From Halalkalicoccus jeotgali B3 (GTDB lineage: Archaea > Halobacteriota > Halobacteria > Halobacteriales > Halalkalicoccaceae): a DNA stretch of 64,000 nt. The DNA lies in assembly GCF_000196895.1 (NCBI RefSeq), contig NC_014297.1, forward strand, positions 1,494,119 to 1,558,118, given 5' to 3'. A program made the translations under genes and the position numbers. The notes beneath the pieces were generated by a model, which was not told where the DNA came from, did no database searches, and worked only from the letters and a program-made list of their open reading frames with translations. The number at the start of each line of letters is the position of its first letter. Within the stretch, counting starts at the first letter, position 1. This document shows positions 11,486 to 20,035 of the stretch, one piece after another.

Positions 11486-12358
11486 GTGGCTCGGGTCCCG
11501 CCGCCGGTCGCGCTCGCCGTCTCGATCCTCGCGCTGAGCACGAGCGCGATCCTCGTGCGCTGGAGCGAAGCGCCGAGCGTCGTCGTCGCCTTCTACCGCG
11601 TGCTGTTTACCCTGCTGTTGCTCGCACCAGTCGCCCTGGTGCGCCATCGCGCCGATTTCCGGGCGCTCTCGGTTCGGGACGCGGGAGTCGCGGCCGTCAC
11701 GGGCGTGGCGCTCGCGATCCACTTCGCCGCGTGGTTCGAGAGTCTGAACTGGACGAGCGTCGCCGCTTCCGTCACGCTGGTCCAGACCCAACCCGTCTTC
11801 GTCGCGATCGGGGCGTACCTGCTGCTCGACGAGCGAGTTACCGTCCGCACGGTCGGGGGAATCACCCTCGCGCTGGCGGGCGCGGCGGTGATGTCGGTGA
11901 GCGACCTGCTTTCTGGGACGACGCTTGCAGGCACCGCTCCCTACGGAAACGCCCTCGCGCTGCTCGGGGGTCTGATGGCCGCCTGTTACGTGCTCGCCGG
12001 CCGGTCGCTGCGCCAGCGGATCGCCCTGCTTCCCTACGTCAGCGTCGTCTACGGGAGCTGTGCGCTCGTCTTGCTCGTACTCGTGTTCGCGGGCGGCACC
12101 CCTCTCACAGGGTATCCGGCCCGCGAGTGGCTGTTGTTCGTCGCGATGGCGGTCGGGCCGGGCGTGTTCGGCCACACGGTGATCAACTGGGCGCTCGCCC
12201 ACGTCGAATCGAGCGTGGTGAGCGTCTCACTGCTGGGCGAACCCGTCGGGGCGACGCTGCTCGCGTTTCTCCTGCTCGCAGAGATCCCCGGGCCGACAAC
12301 GGTCCTCGGAGGGCTCGTCGTGCTGACCGGAATCGGGCTGACCGCACGCACCCGATGA
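11486..12358 (+). CDS. DMT-superfamily transporter with two EamA domains
   Basis: The 290-residue protein has about ten hydrophobic helices arranged as two EamA repeats (residues 5-140 and 150-285); each opens with the typical ALAVSILALSTSAIL / GNALALLGGLMAACYVL helix, and the first continues into RWSEAPSVVVAFYRVLFTLLLLAPVAL. These export metabolites or amino acids; the substrate is unknown. The GTG start is preferred because a TATA-like CAGTAAACG lies 22-30 bases upstream. It ends two bases before the convergent ATPase gene. Confidence 0.88.
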   Translation: MARVPPPVALAVSILALSTSAILVRWSEAPSVVVAFYRVLFTLLLLAPVALVRHRADFRALSVRDAGVAAVTGVALAIHFAAWFESLNWTSVAASVTLVQTQPVFVAIGAYLLLDERVTVRTVGGITLALAGAAVMSVSDLLSGTTLAGTAPYGNALALLGGLMAACYVLAGRSLRQRIALLPYVSVVYGSCALVLLVLVFAGGTPLTGYPAREWLLFVAMAVGPGVFGHTVINWALAHVESSVVSVSLLGEPVGATLLAFLLLAEIPGPTTVLGGLVVLTGIGLTARTR

Positions 12359-13101: not shown

Positions 13102-13825
13102 ATGGTCGAACTCACCGCGACGGGAATCGAGGGACTCGATTCAATTCTCAACGGCGGGCTAGTGAGCCAGTCGACGGTGCTCGTCAGCGGCAACCCGGGG
13201 ACCGGGAAGACGATTCTTGGGATCCAGTACCTCTATTACGGCGTCCGGGAGTTCGACGAACCGGGGATCTACCTCACGCTGGAGGAAGACGAAGCCGACA
13301 TCAGGGCCGCGGCCGAGTCGATCGGGTTCGATGACTGGGGGGGATCTCGTCGAGTCAGGCGACATCACCGTCTTCGATAAGGAGCAACTGCTTCGCGATC
13401 AGGAGTTCACCGCGACACTCGACGAGTTGCTCGCGGCGATCGAACGGACGCAGTGTGATCGGCTGGTGGTCGACTCGCTGACCATGCTGTCGCTGTTTTT
13501 CGAGACCGAACGCGAAAAGCGGACCTACCTGCTGAAGTTCTCGGACATCCTCAAGAAGAACGGTCTGACGACACTGTTCGTCGCCGAACAGGGGAGCCGG
13601 TTCCCGGATCAGGAGGTCGGTCTCGAACACTTCCTCACCGACGGCAACATCTCCCTGATTCAGACGCCGACCGACTCGGGTGTCAATCGCTATGTCTGGG
13701 TCGCGAAGATGCGAAAACGCCCGATCCGCACCGACATCTTCCCGATCGACATCGGCGAGGGAGGGATCACCGTTCACGATCGGGCAGCCGGGTTCTCGCT
13801 GATGGGCGAGGAGGACCCGTTCTAA
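13102..13825 (+). pseudogene. KaiC/RAD55-like ATPase broken by a +1 frameshift in a G7 run
   Basis: Residues 1-79 read a normal KaiC-type start: GIEGLDSILNGGLVSQSTVL, Walker A GNPGTGKTILGIQYL, and the catalytic-acid region YLTLEEDEADI. At 13337-13343 there are seven Gs after TGACT; reading on gives 13 unrelated residues and a stop at 13378-13380. With six Gs the frame would continue into DLVESGDITVFDKEQLL, a Walker-B strand CDRLVVDSLTMLSLFF, and a complete C-terminus ending at 13825 (about 240 residues in all). The lesion may be a real inactivation, a switchable homopolymer, or a sequencing error. The intact protein would be a signalling ATPase of the taxis locus. Confidence 0.8.
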
Positions 13826-13959
13826 AACGTATCAAATCAGAGTAACTTTTATGTCGTGTAGTTGTGTAGATATATCAACGTGTATCTCGATCACGAGCGT
13901 CGAAACCGGGACCGGAACCAGCGCGACGAGCGGCCGATAGTACGGGCGAGGCTGTGGAT

Positions 13960-14361
13960 ATGACTCGGATCCACATCGTGACGGCAGACCCGGGGCTTGC
14001 GGCCCGGTGTGGCGCCGCGCTGGCCGGATTCGAGTGGCGCCACGCGGCGGAGTGGCCACGAGCGACGGATATCGGGCCGACCGACGTGATCCTGTTCGAT
14101 CCCGACGGTCTCGGTCGACCGGCCCACGCGGTCGACTCTCGCCGGACGATCGCGATCGGGGACCGCCTCGAACCCACCGTCCGCGGGGTCGAGCGTACCG
14201 TCGCGAGCAGTCGGTTCGAGGCAGCGATCGACGCTCGGTTCGACGCGTTGACGACGGGATCGGACGACCCGCCAACGATCGAGGTACCCGAGGCGCTCGA
14301 CGCGAGCGCCTTCGGAGAACTGTACGGAGCGATCGGCTCAGACCGCGACGGACTGCGGTGA
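13960..14361 (+). CDS. Taxis-locus protein of unknown function, receiver-like
   Basis: The 133-residue protein begins MTRIHIVTADPGLAARCGAAL and has a strand VILFDPDGLGRP at about residue 45. This strand-Asp-helix layout resembles a degenerate response-regulator receiver: the position of the phospho-acceptor Asp is FDPDG, but the usual acidic pair and Lys are not evident. It lies between the KaiC-like gene and cheW, converging on cheW with a 24-base overlap at the 3' ends. A start two codons upstream (MDMTR) is equally possible. The function is inferred from context only. Confidence 0.6.
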   Translation: MTRIHIVTADPGLAARCGAALAGFEWRHAAEWPRATDIGPTDVILFDPDGLGRPAHAVDSRRTIAIGDRLEPTVRGVERTVASSRFEAAIDARFDALTTGSDDPPTIEVPEALDASAFGELYGAIGSDRDGLR

Positions 14362-14763
14362 GATCCAGATCACGAACCCGTCCTCGCGTTTGACGATCCC
14401 TTCGATGGCGTCGTCCTCGAGGGGCGAATCGTCGACCGTTCCCGGATCGACGGTGACGACCTGATCGACCTCGTCGACGACCCACCCGATCGCCCCCTGC
14501 GTGTCGGTGGCGGCGGGGTCGAAGACGATGATCCGTTTTTCTGCACCCGTCGAGTCGGCGTCGAAGACGATCTTCGGGTCGATGATCGAGGTCGTCCGTC
14601 CCCGCAAGTCCATCACGCCTCTGACGTGACTCGGAGCGTTCGGGATCCGGGTCAGTTTGTCGGTGTCGACGATCTCGGCGACGTAGCCGATGTCGACGCA
14701 GTACGTTTCCGGCCCGAGATCGAACTCGAGGACCTGCGTTCCCTCCCCGTCGGCGTCGCTCAT
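14338..14763 (-). CDS. cheW: Chemotaxis adaptor protein CheW
   Basis: The 141-residue protein has the CheW two-barrel fold: [22 protein letters not shown], the [24 protein letters not shown] segment with the conserved RG pairs that contact transducers and CheA, and [15 protein letters not shown]. It couples transducers to the histidine kinase CheA. Its start overlaps the stop of the transducer gene by 4 bases, so they are cotranscribed. CheA itself is not in the window. Confidence 0.93.
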
Positions 14764-15686
14764 CGCTCCTCCGCGGTGTCGAGACTCGATATCGCGGCCG
14801 ATACCTCCCGGATTTTCGCGGTCTGCTGTTCGTTGGCCGCCGCGACGTCCTCGATCTCCGTCGAGATCACGTCCGCGCTGTCGGCGACCTGATCCACCAT
14901 GCTCGCGACCTCCTCGGTGCTTGCGGCCTGCTCGTCGGTCGCGTCGGCGACCTCCTCGATCCCGCTCGAGGTCTCCTCGACGGCGGTGACGATCCCCTCT
15001 AGATTGCCCATCGCGCCCTCGACCTGCTCGATCCCGGCGCCGATCCGGGTCTCGGTCTCGTCGATGCTCTCGATGGTGCTCTCGGTGCTCGTCTGGATCC
15101 GGTCGACCTGCGATTCGATGCTGGTCGCGTGCTCCTGAGACTGCTCGGCGAGCGATTTGACCTCGTTTGCGACGACTGCGAAGCCGTCGCCGGCCTCGCC
15201 CGCGCGTGCGGCCTCGATCGAGGCGTTGAGCGCGAGCAGGTTCGTCTGATCCGCGATATCGTTGATCACGCCGACCACCGAGTCGATCTCGGCGACGCTC
15301 GACTGGAGCTGTTCGATGTCCTCCGAAACCGCCTGCGTCGAAGCCTCGATCTCCTCCATCATCTCGATGGCCTCGTCGGCTGTTCGGGACCCGTCGACCG
15401 CGAGATCCTGGGCCTGCGAACTGCGCTCTCTGACCTGCTCGGCCGAGGAGGCGATCTCCTCGACGGTCGCGCTCAGGTTCGAGACCTCGCTTGCGGCCGT
15501 GCGTGCGCCGCTCGACTGTTCGCGGGCGGCGTCGCTGATCTCCTGGGAGCTTTCTGCGACCTCCGAGGAGGCCTCCGAGAGCTCCGCGATCGAGTCGGTG
15601 ATCCCCGCGACCGCCTCCTCGTGGGCGAACTCCTCGTCGTCGATCCGCTCGCCCGCGTCCGTCCGATCCGCCGTCTCTGAGGACAT
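14760..15686 (-). CDS. Soluble methyl-accepting chemotaxis transducer
   Basis: The 308 residues are almost entirely coiled coil, with the signalling hairpin tip [20 protein letters not shown] around residues 143-162 followed by [20 protein letters not shown], which mark an MCP signalling domain. There is no transmembrane segment, HAMP or sensory domain; the first 20 residues are simply acidic. It is therefore a cytoplasmic transducer that must receive its signal from a partner protein or through its coiled coil. Glu/Gln pairs at methylation-helix positions ([23 protein letters not shown]) suggest adaptation sites. It is followed by cheW with a 4-base overlap. Confidence 0.92.
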
Positions 15687-15820: not shown

Positions 15821-16489
15821 ATGAGTACACAACCAGCGGACCGGGTCGCGACGCGGGCGGTGGTGGTCGACGACTCGTCGTTCATGCGGACGGTGATCGG
15901 CGACGCCCTCCGGGAGGGCGGCATCGACGTCGTCGCGGAGGCCGAGGACGGAGAGCGCTCGATCGAGGTCGTCCTCGAACACCGGCCCGACATCGTGACG
16001 ATGGACATCGAGATGCCCGGGATCGGCGGCGTAGAGGCCGTCGGACGGATCATGGAGCGGGCCCCGACGCCGATCCTCGTGTTGAGCGCGCACGCGGGCG
16101 AGCGGGCCGAGGTGACTTTCGAGGCCATCGAGCGCGGGGCGGTCGATTTCTTCACCAAGCCCGGCGGCGAGGTCACGACGGGGATGCCCGCCGTCGAAAC
16201 CCAGCTTCTCCGGGCAGTTCGTTCGGTCGCTGGCGCGGATCTCACGGCACGCGCCGGCCAAGCACGGACGAAGACGTCCTCGACGGGTCGATACCTGCCC
16301 GATCCGACGATCGTGATCGGTGCCTCGACCGGCGGGCCGGGCGTCGTCGAGCGGGTCCTCTCGGAACTGCCGATCGAGGCCGACGCGCGTGTGCTCGTCG
16401 TCCAGCATATGCCCGACGCCTTTACCGCGGGGACCAGCGCGTCGGCGACCGTCCGCGCGGACGGTTCGTCGAAGAGGATCGCCAGATAG
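15821..16489 (+). pseudogene. cheB: cheB, truncated in the methylesterase domain
   Basis: The intact part has a receiver domain (VVVDDSSFM, phospho-Asp in VTMDIEMPG, Lys in FFTKPGG), a linker, and the first 45 residues of the methylesterase domain with the catalytic Ser (IGASTGGPG) and His (VQHMPDAFTA). At about 16430 the CheB sequence stops being recognisable; the next 19 codons are the reverse complement of the neighbouring cheC gene, ending at 16489. The catalytic Asp and two thirds of the esterase fold are missing, so it cannot demethylate transducers. The start MSTQPADRV lies about 25 bases after an AATTATATATTG box (15794-15805). The receiver domain could still be made. Confidence 0.88.
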
Positions 16490-17241
16490 CCACTCGGTTG
16501 TCCCCGGTATTCGAGGACAACGCCGACGTAGTCAGTCTCGCCGACGTGGGCCGGTACCTGCTCGATCGTGACGAACCGACACTGGCTGATCTCGACGTCG
16601 GTCTCGATGCCGGTCATCGACGTGATGTACTGGGCCGCCTGCGAGGCGCCCTCGCGGGTCATGTCGTTGAACGCCGCGAACTTCTCCAGCGGGACCGCCC
16701 CGTCGTCGCTCCGGCGGTCGAGGACGGCGGCGAGGGGCTCCCACTCGGGGAGCATGTAGATCTCGAACTCGGCGCCGGTCTCGACGCTCTCGAGCCGGCT
16801 CTCGAAGACGAACTCGGCGTCGACCGGGATCGCCAGCGAACCGTCGAGGGGTGTCGGCGGTCGCGTGTCGATCGCGGTCCCGAGCGAATCGGCCCAGCCG
16901 TCGATCGCCCCGCTGAGCATGATCGAGCCGAACTCCTCGATCCCGCTGTCGATCACCGCGGCGTCCTCCTCGGGGAGACACTCCGCGAGGAGCGCTCGGA
17001 CGCGCGTCCGATCGAACACGAGCGTCGTCCGGCCCGAAAGCGCACCCTCGAAGCCGAGTTCGACGCCCGCCATCTCCCGGGAGAAGCGCTCGCAAGCGCT
17101 CTGGCGGGAAATGAGCGTGACGCTGGTCGATTCGACGCGCGTCTCGACGCCCGTCAGTTCCCGGAACGCGTCGGCGGCGTGTCGTGCGCCGTCGGCGGCG
17201 ATAGCCCGAACGAAATCGAGCGAGTCGGTGTCAACGCGCAT
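16429..17241 (-). pseudogene. cheC-like gene, truncated by fusion to the antisense of cheB
   Basis: The first 271 codons encode a CheC-family protein with tandem domains: SGIEEFGSIMLSGAIDGWAD (residues 99-118) is a CheC active-site helix, although the Asn of the E-x2-N motif reads Ser, and KFAAFNDMTREGASQAAQYI (about 187-206) opens a second domain. After ALVP at 16429 the sequence becomes the complement of cheB and stays open to a stop at 15817-15819, giving a possible 474-residue hybrid. The normal C-terminus is gone. The gene starts immediately after the cheY stop, so cheY-cheC are cotranscribed. CheC proteins dephosphorylate CheY-P or bind CheD. Confidence 0.82.
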
Positions 17242-17604
17242 CTATGCGGGCACGACGTCGTCAATGGCCTGGAGGACGCTCGGTTTCTGGAACGGTTTGG
17301 TGATGTAGCCGCTCGCGCCGGCTTTGACCGCCATCTTCATCTTCTCCTCCTGGCCCACGCTCGTACACATGATCACCCGAGCGTCGGCATCCCCGGCGGT
17401 GATCGCCGTCGTCGCCTCGATCCCATCGCGGATCGGCATGACGATGTCCATCATCACCAGATCGGGATCGTGTTCCTCGTACAGTTCGACGGCCTCGACG
17501 CCGTTTTCGGCTTCACCGACGATCTCGTAGTCCTCGGCGAGGATCTCTCGCAGGAGGCTGCGCATGAACTCCGAGTCGTCGACGATCAGGACGCGTGTCG
17601 ACAT
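17242..17604 (-). CDS. cheY: Chemotaxis response regulator CheY
   Basis: The 120-residue single receiver domain has the acidic pocket (VDDSEF), phospho-acceptor Asp in LVMMDIVMPIRDG (about residue 53), the Thr/Ser switch in VIMCTSVGQEEKM, and Lys in YITKPFQ. Phosphorylated CheY acts on the archaellum switch through CheF in haloarchaea (known of the family). A TATA-like GATTTATACG lies about 30 bases upstream on the minus strand. It is followed without a gap by the truncated cheC. Confidence 0.95.
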   Translation of the reverse strand: MSTRVLIVDDSEFMRSLLREILAEDYEIVGEAENGVEAVELYEEHDPDLVMMDIVMPIRDGIEATTAITAGDADARVIMCTSVGQEEKMKMAVKAGASGYITKPFQKPSVLQAIDDVVPA

Positions 17605-17654: not shown

Positions 17655-18119
17655 TCAGCGCTGAGTTTCGAGGGCAGCAAGCAGGTCCGCGATCGAGTCC
17701 GTGGGCGTGAGGTCGTGGCGATCGAGGGCTGTTTCGACGGTCGGGCGCGGCCCGATTGCGAGGTCCGACTCCGCGACGAGGATCCCGAGGACGCGTTCGG
17801 GATCGAGCTCGTCGTCGACCTCCCGGGCGTACCACCGCAGAAGATCCGAGAACGTCGCGACCACGTCATCCGATCCTGTCCGGTGATTCGACGTCTCACC
17901 ATCGAAGCGCCCCTCGATGACGACCTCATACCGAGCGCCCGAATCGAAACGGTGGGAGTCGTCGGACGTCTCGGCCCCGCTCGGCTCGGGTACGGTTCGG
18001 TCGGTCGAAACGACGTACCGACCGTCGTCGATCTCGGCGACGTACTCGCTGTCGGCGAGATCGAGATCCGACGGCGAGAGGACGCCGTCGTCCGAACTGT
18101 TCTGTCGCTCGTCCGTCAT
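17655..18119 (-). CDS. Haloarchaeal taxis/archaellum-locus protein of unknown function
   Basis: The 154-residue acidic protein opens with about 20 polar residues and a short LSPSDLDLADSEYVAEIDDGRYVVS strand pair, then a strand-rich RYEVVIEGRFDGE segment and a helical C-terminal half (FSDLLRWYAREV, RVLGILVAESD). No membrane segment or catalytic motif is seen. It resembles proteins that accompany cheY/arl genes in other haloarchaea and carry only DUF names. Position between arlG and cheY suggests a role in motility signalling. Confidence 0.65.
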   Translation of the reverse strand: MTDERQNSSDDGVLSPSDLDLADSEYVAEIDDGRYVVSTDRTVPEPSGAETSDDSHRFDSGARYEVVIEGRFDGETSNHRTGSDDVVATFSDLLRWYAREVDDELDPERVLGILVAESDLAIGPRPTVETALDRHDLTPTDSIADLLAALETQR

Positions 18120-18157: not shown

Positions 18158-18613
18158 TCAGAACCGGAAGTCGAACGTCGCCCGACTGCCGTTGACGATG
18201 ACCGTCGCGCGGTGATCGCCGGCATCGAGGCCGCCCTCGACGGGGACCGTCACCGTCGCGACCGCCCCCGGCGACCATCGACTCTCCCCGGAGACGACCG
18301 TGACGGTCGGTCCCGACCGGTACTGGCCGTCGATCAGTGTGTCGAGGGACGACCCGTTCGCCTCGATGGGCGTCCGGCCGGTGTTTTTCACCAGCAGGGA
18401 GACCGTTTCCGCTTGCTCGTCGTAGACCGCGTCGCTCGACGGGTCGCTGATGATCGCGACGTCGGTGTCGATCTGCCGGGTGATGTCCTCGCTCTGGCGA
18501 TCGACGGAGCTACTGACCTGCTCGACACCCGTCACCAGCGTGCCGGCGACGCTGGCCGCGACCAGCAGGCTCGCGATGAAGATGATCAGGTGCGAGATCG
18601 AGACCGAACCCAT
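18158..18613 (-). CDS. arlG: Archaellum stator/anchor protein ArlG (FlaG)
   Basis: The 151-residue protein has one N-terminal hydrophobic helix (ISHLIIFIASLLVAASVAGTLV), as in archaellins but without a class III signal peptide, followed by a beta-rich outer domain (ETVSLLVKNTGRTPIEANGSSLDTLIDG). This matches ArlG, which with ArlF links the archaellum motor to the S-layer. It begins at the base next to the arlF stop codon. Confidence 0.87.
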   Translation of the reverse strand: MGSVSISHLIIFIASLLVAASVAGTLVTGVEQVSSSVDRQSEDITRQIDTDVAIISDPSSDAVYDEQAETVSLLVKNTGRTPIEANGSSLDTLIDGQYRSGPTVTVVSGESRWSPGAVATVTVPVEGGLDAGDHRATVIVNGSRATFDFRF

Positions 18614-19060
18614 CTACGCTCCCCCCGAGTCGTCGACGGTCGCCGTCGCGGCGACGCCGCCTTCGGTGACCACCTTCACGCTGGTCGCGTTCGATTCGAG
18701 TTCGTATGCGAGCGTCTCTCCGGGCACCCACAGGTTCGTCTCGGCGGTGACGTTGCCGCTCGCGTCGATCACCGCGGGATCCGTGGTCACGTACTCGCCG
18801 TCGACGAGCAGGTCCGTGCGATCGATCGAGAGCGCGGTCGAACCGGTGTTCGTGACCGAAACCGAGAGGGCCGTCCCGTTCCGGGTCGCGTCACCGATCT
18901 CGATGGCCGTATTCTGTCGATCGAGGAGGCGATCAGCGTGCTCGTCCTGTGCGGTCGTCACCCGGTCGAAGCTGTCGGTCGCGACCGTGAAGATCACACT
19001 GAACGCTATCAGACAGCCGATGAGGATGACCACCGTGGATCCGCTGACGCTGAAGCCCAT
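18614..19060 (-). CDS. arlF: Archaellum stator protein ArlF (FlaF)
   Basis: The 148 residues comprise an N-terminal helix (GFSVSGSTVVILIGCLIAFSVIF) and a beta-sandwich (NGTALSVSVTNTGSTALSIDRTDLLVDGEYV, later LWVPGETLAYELE), the pattern of ArlF, which binds the S-layer as part of the stator. The start MGFSVSGS was chosen because it begins the conserved N-terminal helix; an upstream ATG adds a basic stretch. The gene follows the archaellin gene by 84 bases and abuts arlG. Confidence 0.87.
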   Translation of the reverse strand: MGFSVSGSTVVILIGCLIAFSVIFTVATDSFDRVTTAQDEHADRLLDRQNTAIEIGDATRNGTALSVSVTNTGSTALSIDRTDLLVDGEYVTTDPAVIDASGNVTAETNLWVPGETLAYELESNATSVKVVTEGGVAATATVDDSGGA

Positions 19061-19144
19061 TTTGTATCGTGTTCCGTGTACTGAAAGCCGACACCGCATC
19101 GCAACGCCGACCGGTCGATAGGTTGGTTAGTGAGCGATACTCGA

Positions 19145-19999
19145 TTACAGCGCGACGACACTCCCGGCACTCGCGAGCGAGTCGGGGACCTGGACGGTCA
19201 CGGTCCGCTGTGCGCCCGAAGCCGTCGTGAGCGTCAGTTCGGCCTCGTCGCCGGCTCCGAGTGCAGCGATGTTGAACCCGCTACCACCCAACGCAGTGTG
19301 GTTGAGCGTGATCCGGTAGCGGTCGCCGTTGTCGGTCATGACGTTGTCGCCGCCGCTCTCGGAGGAGATGGCGCTGACCGTGTAGCCGGTATTACCATCC
19401 GGTCCGGCGGGGTCGCTAGTCTCGGTATTATCCGACCCGAGAGTGATCGTCTGGGATGCATCGTCACTCACAGTAAGGGTCTCGCTACCGGTAGCAGAGC
19501 CATCCGTAGCTTCGATATCATACGTACCCGCGGGGAGTTCGATGGTAGCCGTCCCGGAGTCGTCCGCCGTCACCGACGTCCCAATTGGAGCAACGGAGAC
19601 GTCTGCGTTTGCACCTGTACCGGTTCCATCTTCAACGTCTACCGTCACCGTGTACGTCTCGGCGGCACCGATGTTCTCAGCACCGCTGGGACCGAGATAC
19701 TGGATGTCCATCTCGGAGAGATCGATATCGCCCGCGCCGGGCGCTCGCTGGAGGGTCAGCGAAGTCTTCTCAACCCCACTTCCGTCGTCAGCGACCGAGC
19801 CAACTTCGGTGAGCACTCGCACGTTGTCCGAAACCTGCTGGGTGCTTTCGATACCCGTGTCTTCTGCTTGCGTCTGGAGGAAGCCGGCGGTATTGATCAG
19901 CACGCCCGCTGCGATCGCTGCAACGAGGACCATCGCGATGAACACGATGAGGGTGCCGATACCGACCTGACCCCTGTCTTCTGTCTGTGTTTCGAACAT
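19145..19999 (-). CDS. arlA: Archaellin with an inserted Ig-like domain
   Basis: The filament subunit starts [20 protein letters not shown]: a short class III signal peptide to be cut after RG (residue 10) and the conserved archaellin helix with [19 protein letters not shown]. The C-terminal head contains the usual strands ([25 protein letters not shown]). Residues 114-188 (bases 19436-19660) form an extra beta-rich module ([11 protein letters not shown] ... [24 protein letters not shown] ... SQTITL) resembling carboxypeptidase-regulatory or CNA-B-like Ig folds. The length of 284 is well above the usual 190-220. The insert also uses more A/T-ending codons than its flanks. It is the only archaellin here and lies upstream of arlF-arlG. 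Confidence 0.9.
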
Positions 20000-20035
20000 T
20001 GTTTCTGTTGGCTCCGCCACTTGGACGAACCCTAT

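Follow-up and report, generated by a model that had tools for sequence, protein, structure and literature searches.

The window analysed here, a stretch of 64,000 nucleotides from the haloarchaeon Halalkalicoccus jeotgali B3, lies within a contig of 2,809,118 bases in an assembly that comprises 3,698,650 bases in 7 contigs and is 98.6% complete. The genome of this strain is represented by seven records (accessions CP002062-68), 3.69 Mb altogether (PMC3528665, PMC4149028). The window contains the 5' fragments of two chemotaxis genes, cheB and cheC, which lie on opposite strands and meet tail to tail among other chemotaxis (che) and archaellum (arl) genes (Table 1). The region was compared with six genomes of the same genus (G001 to G006), including the fragmented genome G005, in which the che and arl genes are split over two contigs, with one genome from another genus (G007), and with further haloarchaea of the order, among them G018 and G020.

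Table 1. Features of the che-arl region in the window, and the additional receptor genes of the same genome (positions are those of the window unless another locus, L065 or L066, is given).
Feature	Position	Strand	Characteristics
KaiC-like ATPase gene	13102-13822	+	Frameshift at a seven-G run (near 13338-13344)
135-aa open frame	13954-14361	+	No Pfam match
cheW	14338-14763	-	Intact
Cytoplasmic receptor gene	14760-15686	-	MCP signalling domain; intact; shared with G005
cheB 5' fragment	15821-16429	+	203 aa; profile search and alignment with relatives
Probable deletion junction	16428-16431		cheB (+) tail to tail with cheC (-); homology ends and overlap check
cheC 5' fragment	16430-17241	-	270 aa of about 384; alignment with G005
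cheY	17242-17604	-	Intact; pairwise dN/dS 0.11-0.15
DUF7500 protein gene	17655-18119	-	Same position conserved in the genus
arlG	18158-18613	-	Intact frame
arlF	18614-19063	-	Intact frame
Archaellin gene	19145-20020	-	Single copy; several copies in G001 and G006
Further receptor gene	L065 2527-4008	+	Intact
Further receptor gene	L066 3903-5411	-	Intact

From its start at 15821, the cheB fragment aligns with the full-length CheB of two genomes of the same genus for 203 codons, through the sequence VQHMPDAFTA at 16429; it covers 203 of 352 residues and is 75% identical to the CheB of G005. The receiver domain is complete by the Pfam profile, and the methylesterase domain (CheB_methylest) is represented only by profile positions 1-39 to 1-41 of 174. 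A functional methylesterase requires the Ser-His-Asp triad within a full catalytic domain, and the fragment, which ends after the His, keeps the Ser (in GASTGGP) and the His (in VQHMP) and lacks the Asp. Alignment and Pfam thus bear out the initial annotation, made from the sequence alone, in which the plus-strand CheB was described as canonical up to VQHMPDAFTA, with the His kept and the Asp and most of the esterase domain gone. Past the break, the frame stays open over about 19 foreign codons and stops at 16487-16489. On its own branch, the fragment has a dN of 0.094 and a dS of 0.267, a ratio of about 0.35, compared with about 0.26 for G001 and 0.13 for G005; these rates would fit a break that came about recently compared with the species split, in a comparison of one gene in three sequences that is no proof of relaxed selection.

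About 268-270 codons of the cheC fragment, from its start at 17241 to the residues DALVP, align with the CheC of G005, which is 384 aa long; the tblastn comparison places the end of the homology at 16429. The earlier description of the minus-strand CheC as canonical up to ALVP at 16429-16431 therefore agrees with the alignment to the G005 protein. Past the break, the open frame extends to 15817, crossing cheB in antisense over about 204 codons. The stretch that Pfam CheC matches best, residues 276-312 in the G005 protein, lies in the lost part, and the fragment in the window scores 19.5 bits, below the cut-off of 22, compared with 71.1 bits for the whole G005 protein; judged by the presence of the canonical motif at the family cut-off, it is not a functional CheC phosphatase.

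The two homologies end on the neighbouring bases 16428 and 16429, with no base between them and a possible overlap of at most 1-2 bp; that the two coding sequences meet within a few bases, as had been noticed at the outset, is correct to the base. A repeat search of the region found no mobile element or repeat at the junction. The longest inverted repeats, of 40-41 bp at 78%, are formed by the receiver stretches of cheB and cheY, and their ends are not at the junction. Base composition across the region is unremarkable, and the flanks are collinear with those of the relatives, from 167 to 29383 of the window in G001 and from 167 to 22656 in G006, apart from local gaps.

Among the genes around the junction, cheW has a pairwise dN/dS of 0.15-0.21 in the comparisons that involve the H. 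jeotgali genome. The genes on the far side of cheY we take to be arlG, arlF and an archaellin gene, from their order and from the known features of these families. Together with two further intact genes, of which one is on the main contig and the other on contig 2, the genome encodes three receptors; G002, G003, G004 and G006 encode none. For the 135-aa open frame beside cheW, G002, G005 and G006 each have a counterpart in the corresponding position. The KaiC-like gene is intact in G001, G002 and G006, and the run of seven G is one of four G in G006; the copy in the window is either a real pseudogene or the product of a sequencing error.

The remainder of the chemotaxis and motor machinery is missing from the genome as a whole. 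Family searches, which recovered all four of CheB, CheR, CheD and CheA in Haloferax volcanii, one of the control genomes, detected no CheR, CheD or CheA dimerisation domain anywhere in the H. jeotgali genome, and the CheA of a relative, used as a query, had no match in it. The missing 3' half of cheB and 3' third of cheC are not found elsewhere either: the one CheB_methylest match in the whole genome is partial, and the sole CheC match consists of residues 1-268. With these searches, the check proposed in the initial annotation, a genome-wide search for the two 3' halves and for cheA, cheR and cheD, has been run, and none was found. ArlI and ArlJ, which are 79-92% identical in G002, G004 and G006, have no orthologues in the genome, only distant pilus-type matches (40% and 25% identity) at 2.03 Mb of contig C1. 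Judging from synteny, the gene for the HEAT protein, cheF, arlCE and arlH would have been removed as well. Summed from the genes of relatives, the missing stretch amounts to about 11.3 kb (the rest of cheB, 0.45 kb; cheA, 1.9; cheR, 0.8; HEAT and cheF, 2.1; arlJ to arlCE, 5.2; cheD, 0.5; the rest of cheC, 0.35), an estimate drawn from different genomes, with spacers left out. Plasmid records yielded only distant receiver-domain or cheB similarity. In the literature, with the genome paper of the species outside the search, no paper on this junction or on che loss in the genus was found.

The arrangement of these genes in relatives allows the ancestral locus to be reconstructed. On one contig of G001, cheW, cheB and cheA, the latter two intact, and a cheR cut off after its first 90 codons face an intact cheY and a cheC cut off after 52-53 codons; the two truncated genes are joined tail to tail (L022 14686-15083). 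On one contig of G006, cheY, a damaged cheC, a partial cheD, arlCE, arlH, arlI and arlJ face cheF, the gene for a HEAT-repeat protein, intact cheA and a reduced cheB, with the 3' ends of cheF and arlJ about 15 bp apart. In G005, one contig carries cheW, a receptor gene and cheB followed by cheA on the same strand, and another carries arlG, the DUF7500 gene, cheY, full-length cheC, cheD, arlCE, arlH and arlI. Outside the genus, G013 has cheB-cheA-cheR-HEAT-cheF as one run, separate from a cheY-cheC-cheD-arl run. A HEAT protein that adjoins CheF is the arrangement known from haloarchaea, and in Halobacterium both are required for motor switching (Schlesner et al. 2009, PMC2666748). As a composite of G001, G005 and G006, no single genome having the whole locus on one contig, the ancestor of the genus in all likelihood possessed two convergent operons, cheB>cheA>cheR>HEAT>cheF> facing <arlJ<arlI<arlH<arlCE<cheD<cheC<cheY, of which the right-hand one, read on the other strand, would run archaellin-arlF-arlG-DUF7500-cheY-cheC-cheD-arlCE-arlH-arlI-arlJ. 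The expectation that che genes are codirectional in haloarchaea, from which the initial annotation had started, holds for G018 and G020, where the che and arl genes run one way, and fails for G012, G013 and G019, where cheB-cheA and cheY-cheC occupy separate loci, as well as for this genus, where they converge.

Against this background, we are highly confident that the join in the window is the scar of one deletion of about 11 kb across the meeting point of the convergent operons. The breakpoint in cheB would fall in codon 203 and that in cheC after codon 270; everything between them would have been lost and the ends joined with hardly any overlap, presumably by end joining or some other form of illegitimate recombination. 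Because the operons converged, a deletion alone leaves two 5' stumps tail to tail, with no inversion involved. The observations are those expected of a simple deletion: both stumps are homologous to the relatives' genes in the same orientation, the intervening sequence is absent and the flanks are collinear. A deletion of cheA, cheR and cheD had been named initially as the second choice; the genome searches support it, on a larger scale than was proposed. What had been overlooked is that the deletion extends over the archaellum motor genes, that the facing orientation is ancestral to the genus, and that the best-matching Pfam part of CheC was cut off. As part of this reading, cheW, cheY, the receptors, archaellin and arlFG are very probably remnants at an early stage of decay.

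Other members of the genus have lost parts of the same locus separately. Neither the scar in the window nor that in G001 derives from the other because G001 keeps cheA and cheB, which are gone in the window, and is without cheC codons 53-270, which the window keeps. In G006, the first ~46 codons of cheB are joined to the last few directly before the intact cheA (L025 16977-17120, minus strand), a separate internal deletion. The cheC gene of G006 (L025 6616-7426, plus strand) is frameshifted near codon 82 and has lost about 690 bp internally, and cheD matches only partly; the ends of the cheC deletion share a short CTCGA-GA motif, and comparison of the two species' sequences suggests illegitimate recombination. 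G002 (L050 12915-18695) and G004 (L052 2774-8490) have complete arlCE-H-I-J, lack cheY, cheC, cheD, cheA and cheB, and have no receptors in the genome. In G003 (L059), flank is joined to flank, such that window positions 12335 and 20646 correspond to points 342 bp apart, and the stretch between them yielded none of the genes of the locus. The site is also empty in G007 (L061), and across G003 and G007 the flanks of the che-arl locus are 0.3-0.8 kb apart. In a tree of conserved flanking DNA, the H. jeotgali genome falls with G006, G002 and G004, outside G001 and G003, with a support of 85 without G005 and 51 with it, that is, moderate support for its exact position. Because H. jeotgali groups with the motor-keeping G002, G004 and G006 rather than with G001 and G003, three separate events are the simplest reading of the motor-gene losses seen in the window, G001 and G003.

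The functional consequences follow from what is known of these systems. Loss of CheA deprives CheY and the receiver domain of CheB of the donor that normally phosphorylates them, receptors cannot be cycled through methylation when CheR and a whole CheB are missing, and ArlI and ArlJ are needed both to build and to turn the archaellum. The genome encodes neither the CheA kinase that defines working chemotaxis nor the ArlI and ArlJ that define a working archaellum. With no kinase and no motor, the loss therefore extends beyond adaptation to swimming chemotaxis itself, and we infer from gene content that this lineage, which we take to consist of non-motile cocci, would be unable to swim chemotactically. 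The initial annotation envisaged that adaptation would be abolished or altered; the adaptation genes are indeed gone, and the effect was understated, given that the kinase and the motor are gone too. A survey that covered 352 archaeal genomes states that strains with receptors have CheA (PMC9680633); the H. jeotgali genome, with three receptors and no CheA, is an exception.

The retained parts could, in principle, serve as something other than relics, with CheY, CheW, the three receptors, a receiver-only CheB and a C-terminally cut CheC forming a rewired module that has no kinase or borrows one. The open frames of the fragments, the intact receptor frames, the low pairwise dN/dS of cheY and cheW (0.11-0.21) and a ratio below 1 (about 0.35) on the cheB branch are compatible with such a module. 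However, the low pairwise values stem mostly from the period that preceded the deletion, constraint on cheB is weakest on this genome's branch among the three, and the same parts have been lost altogether in related species, which makes this scenario very improbable. If it were true, a set driven by another kinase would turn the scar into a case of pathway reshaping, more than decay.

A misassembly in which the middle of the locus was collapsed or dropped is equally improbable. The frameshift in the KaiC-like gene, about 2.5 kb away, may be a sequencing error, but the junction is far from the ends of its 2.8 Mb contig, and 11 kb of dropped single-copy DNA would be expected to turn up somewhere, whereas CheA, CheR, CheD, ArlI and ArlJ are absent throughout. 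Furthermore, no repeat at the breakpoints could cause a false join, and the same kind of loss is seen in independent assemblies from the genus.

The inversion put forward initially, with breakpoints in cheB and cheC, by which once-codirectional genes came to lie tail to tail, perhaps reversibly, is extremely improbable despite the one-way order in G018 and G020 and the inverted cheB and cheY receiver stretches, which are expected of homologous genes on opposite strands: it would keep both missing halves at the other breakpoint, where neither is present, so that it is refuted for this assembly; the opposite orientation predates the junction, being found in G001 and G006; and no repeat spans the junction. 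An invertible switch was rejected as well, the complementary halves not being joined at a second site in the genome and the breakpoints having no inverted repeats; with the 3' halves, CheA, CheR, CheD, ArlI and ArlJ nowhere else in the genome, no switch could restore them. More generally, the tail-to-tail stumps that remain of convergent operons can pass for the product of an inversion.

Under the deletion reading, the genus presents an unusually clear natural deletion series at one locus, from the near-complete G005, through the window and G001, where the motor is lost and part of the che set kept, and G006, G002 and G004, where the motor is kept with the che genes partly lost (G006) or fully excised (G002 and G004), to the empty site of G003. 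Motor-first and sensing-first losses thus both occur among close relatives.

In its gene content, the locus of the relatives resembles the che-arl locus of Halobacterium salinarum and Haloferax volcanii, with cheB, cheA, cheR, cheC, cheD, cheY, HEAT beside cheF, arlCE, F, G, H, I and J, and archaellin; it differs in that this genus has convergent halves and in that the middle is gone from the window. The junction is also reminiscent of phase-variable DNA inversion, where two genes are cut and joined on opposite strands; here, however, the other halves are absent, the junction has no recombination repeats, and the genes faced each other before it formed. A further parallel is the reductive loss of motility in non-motile lineages, with its deletions, truncations and empty sites and its leftover adaptor, receptor and filament genes. 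Taken singly, the scar is ordinary reductive motility loss of an already known kind; what sets it apart from other such losses is that a single genus shows several stages and breakpoints, among them two tail-to-tail scars that arose separately where the same two operons meet.
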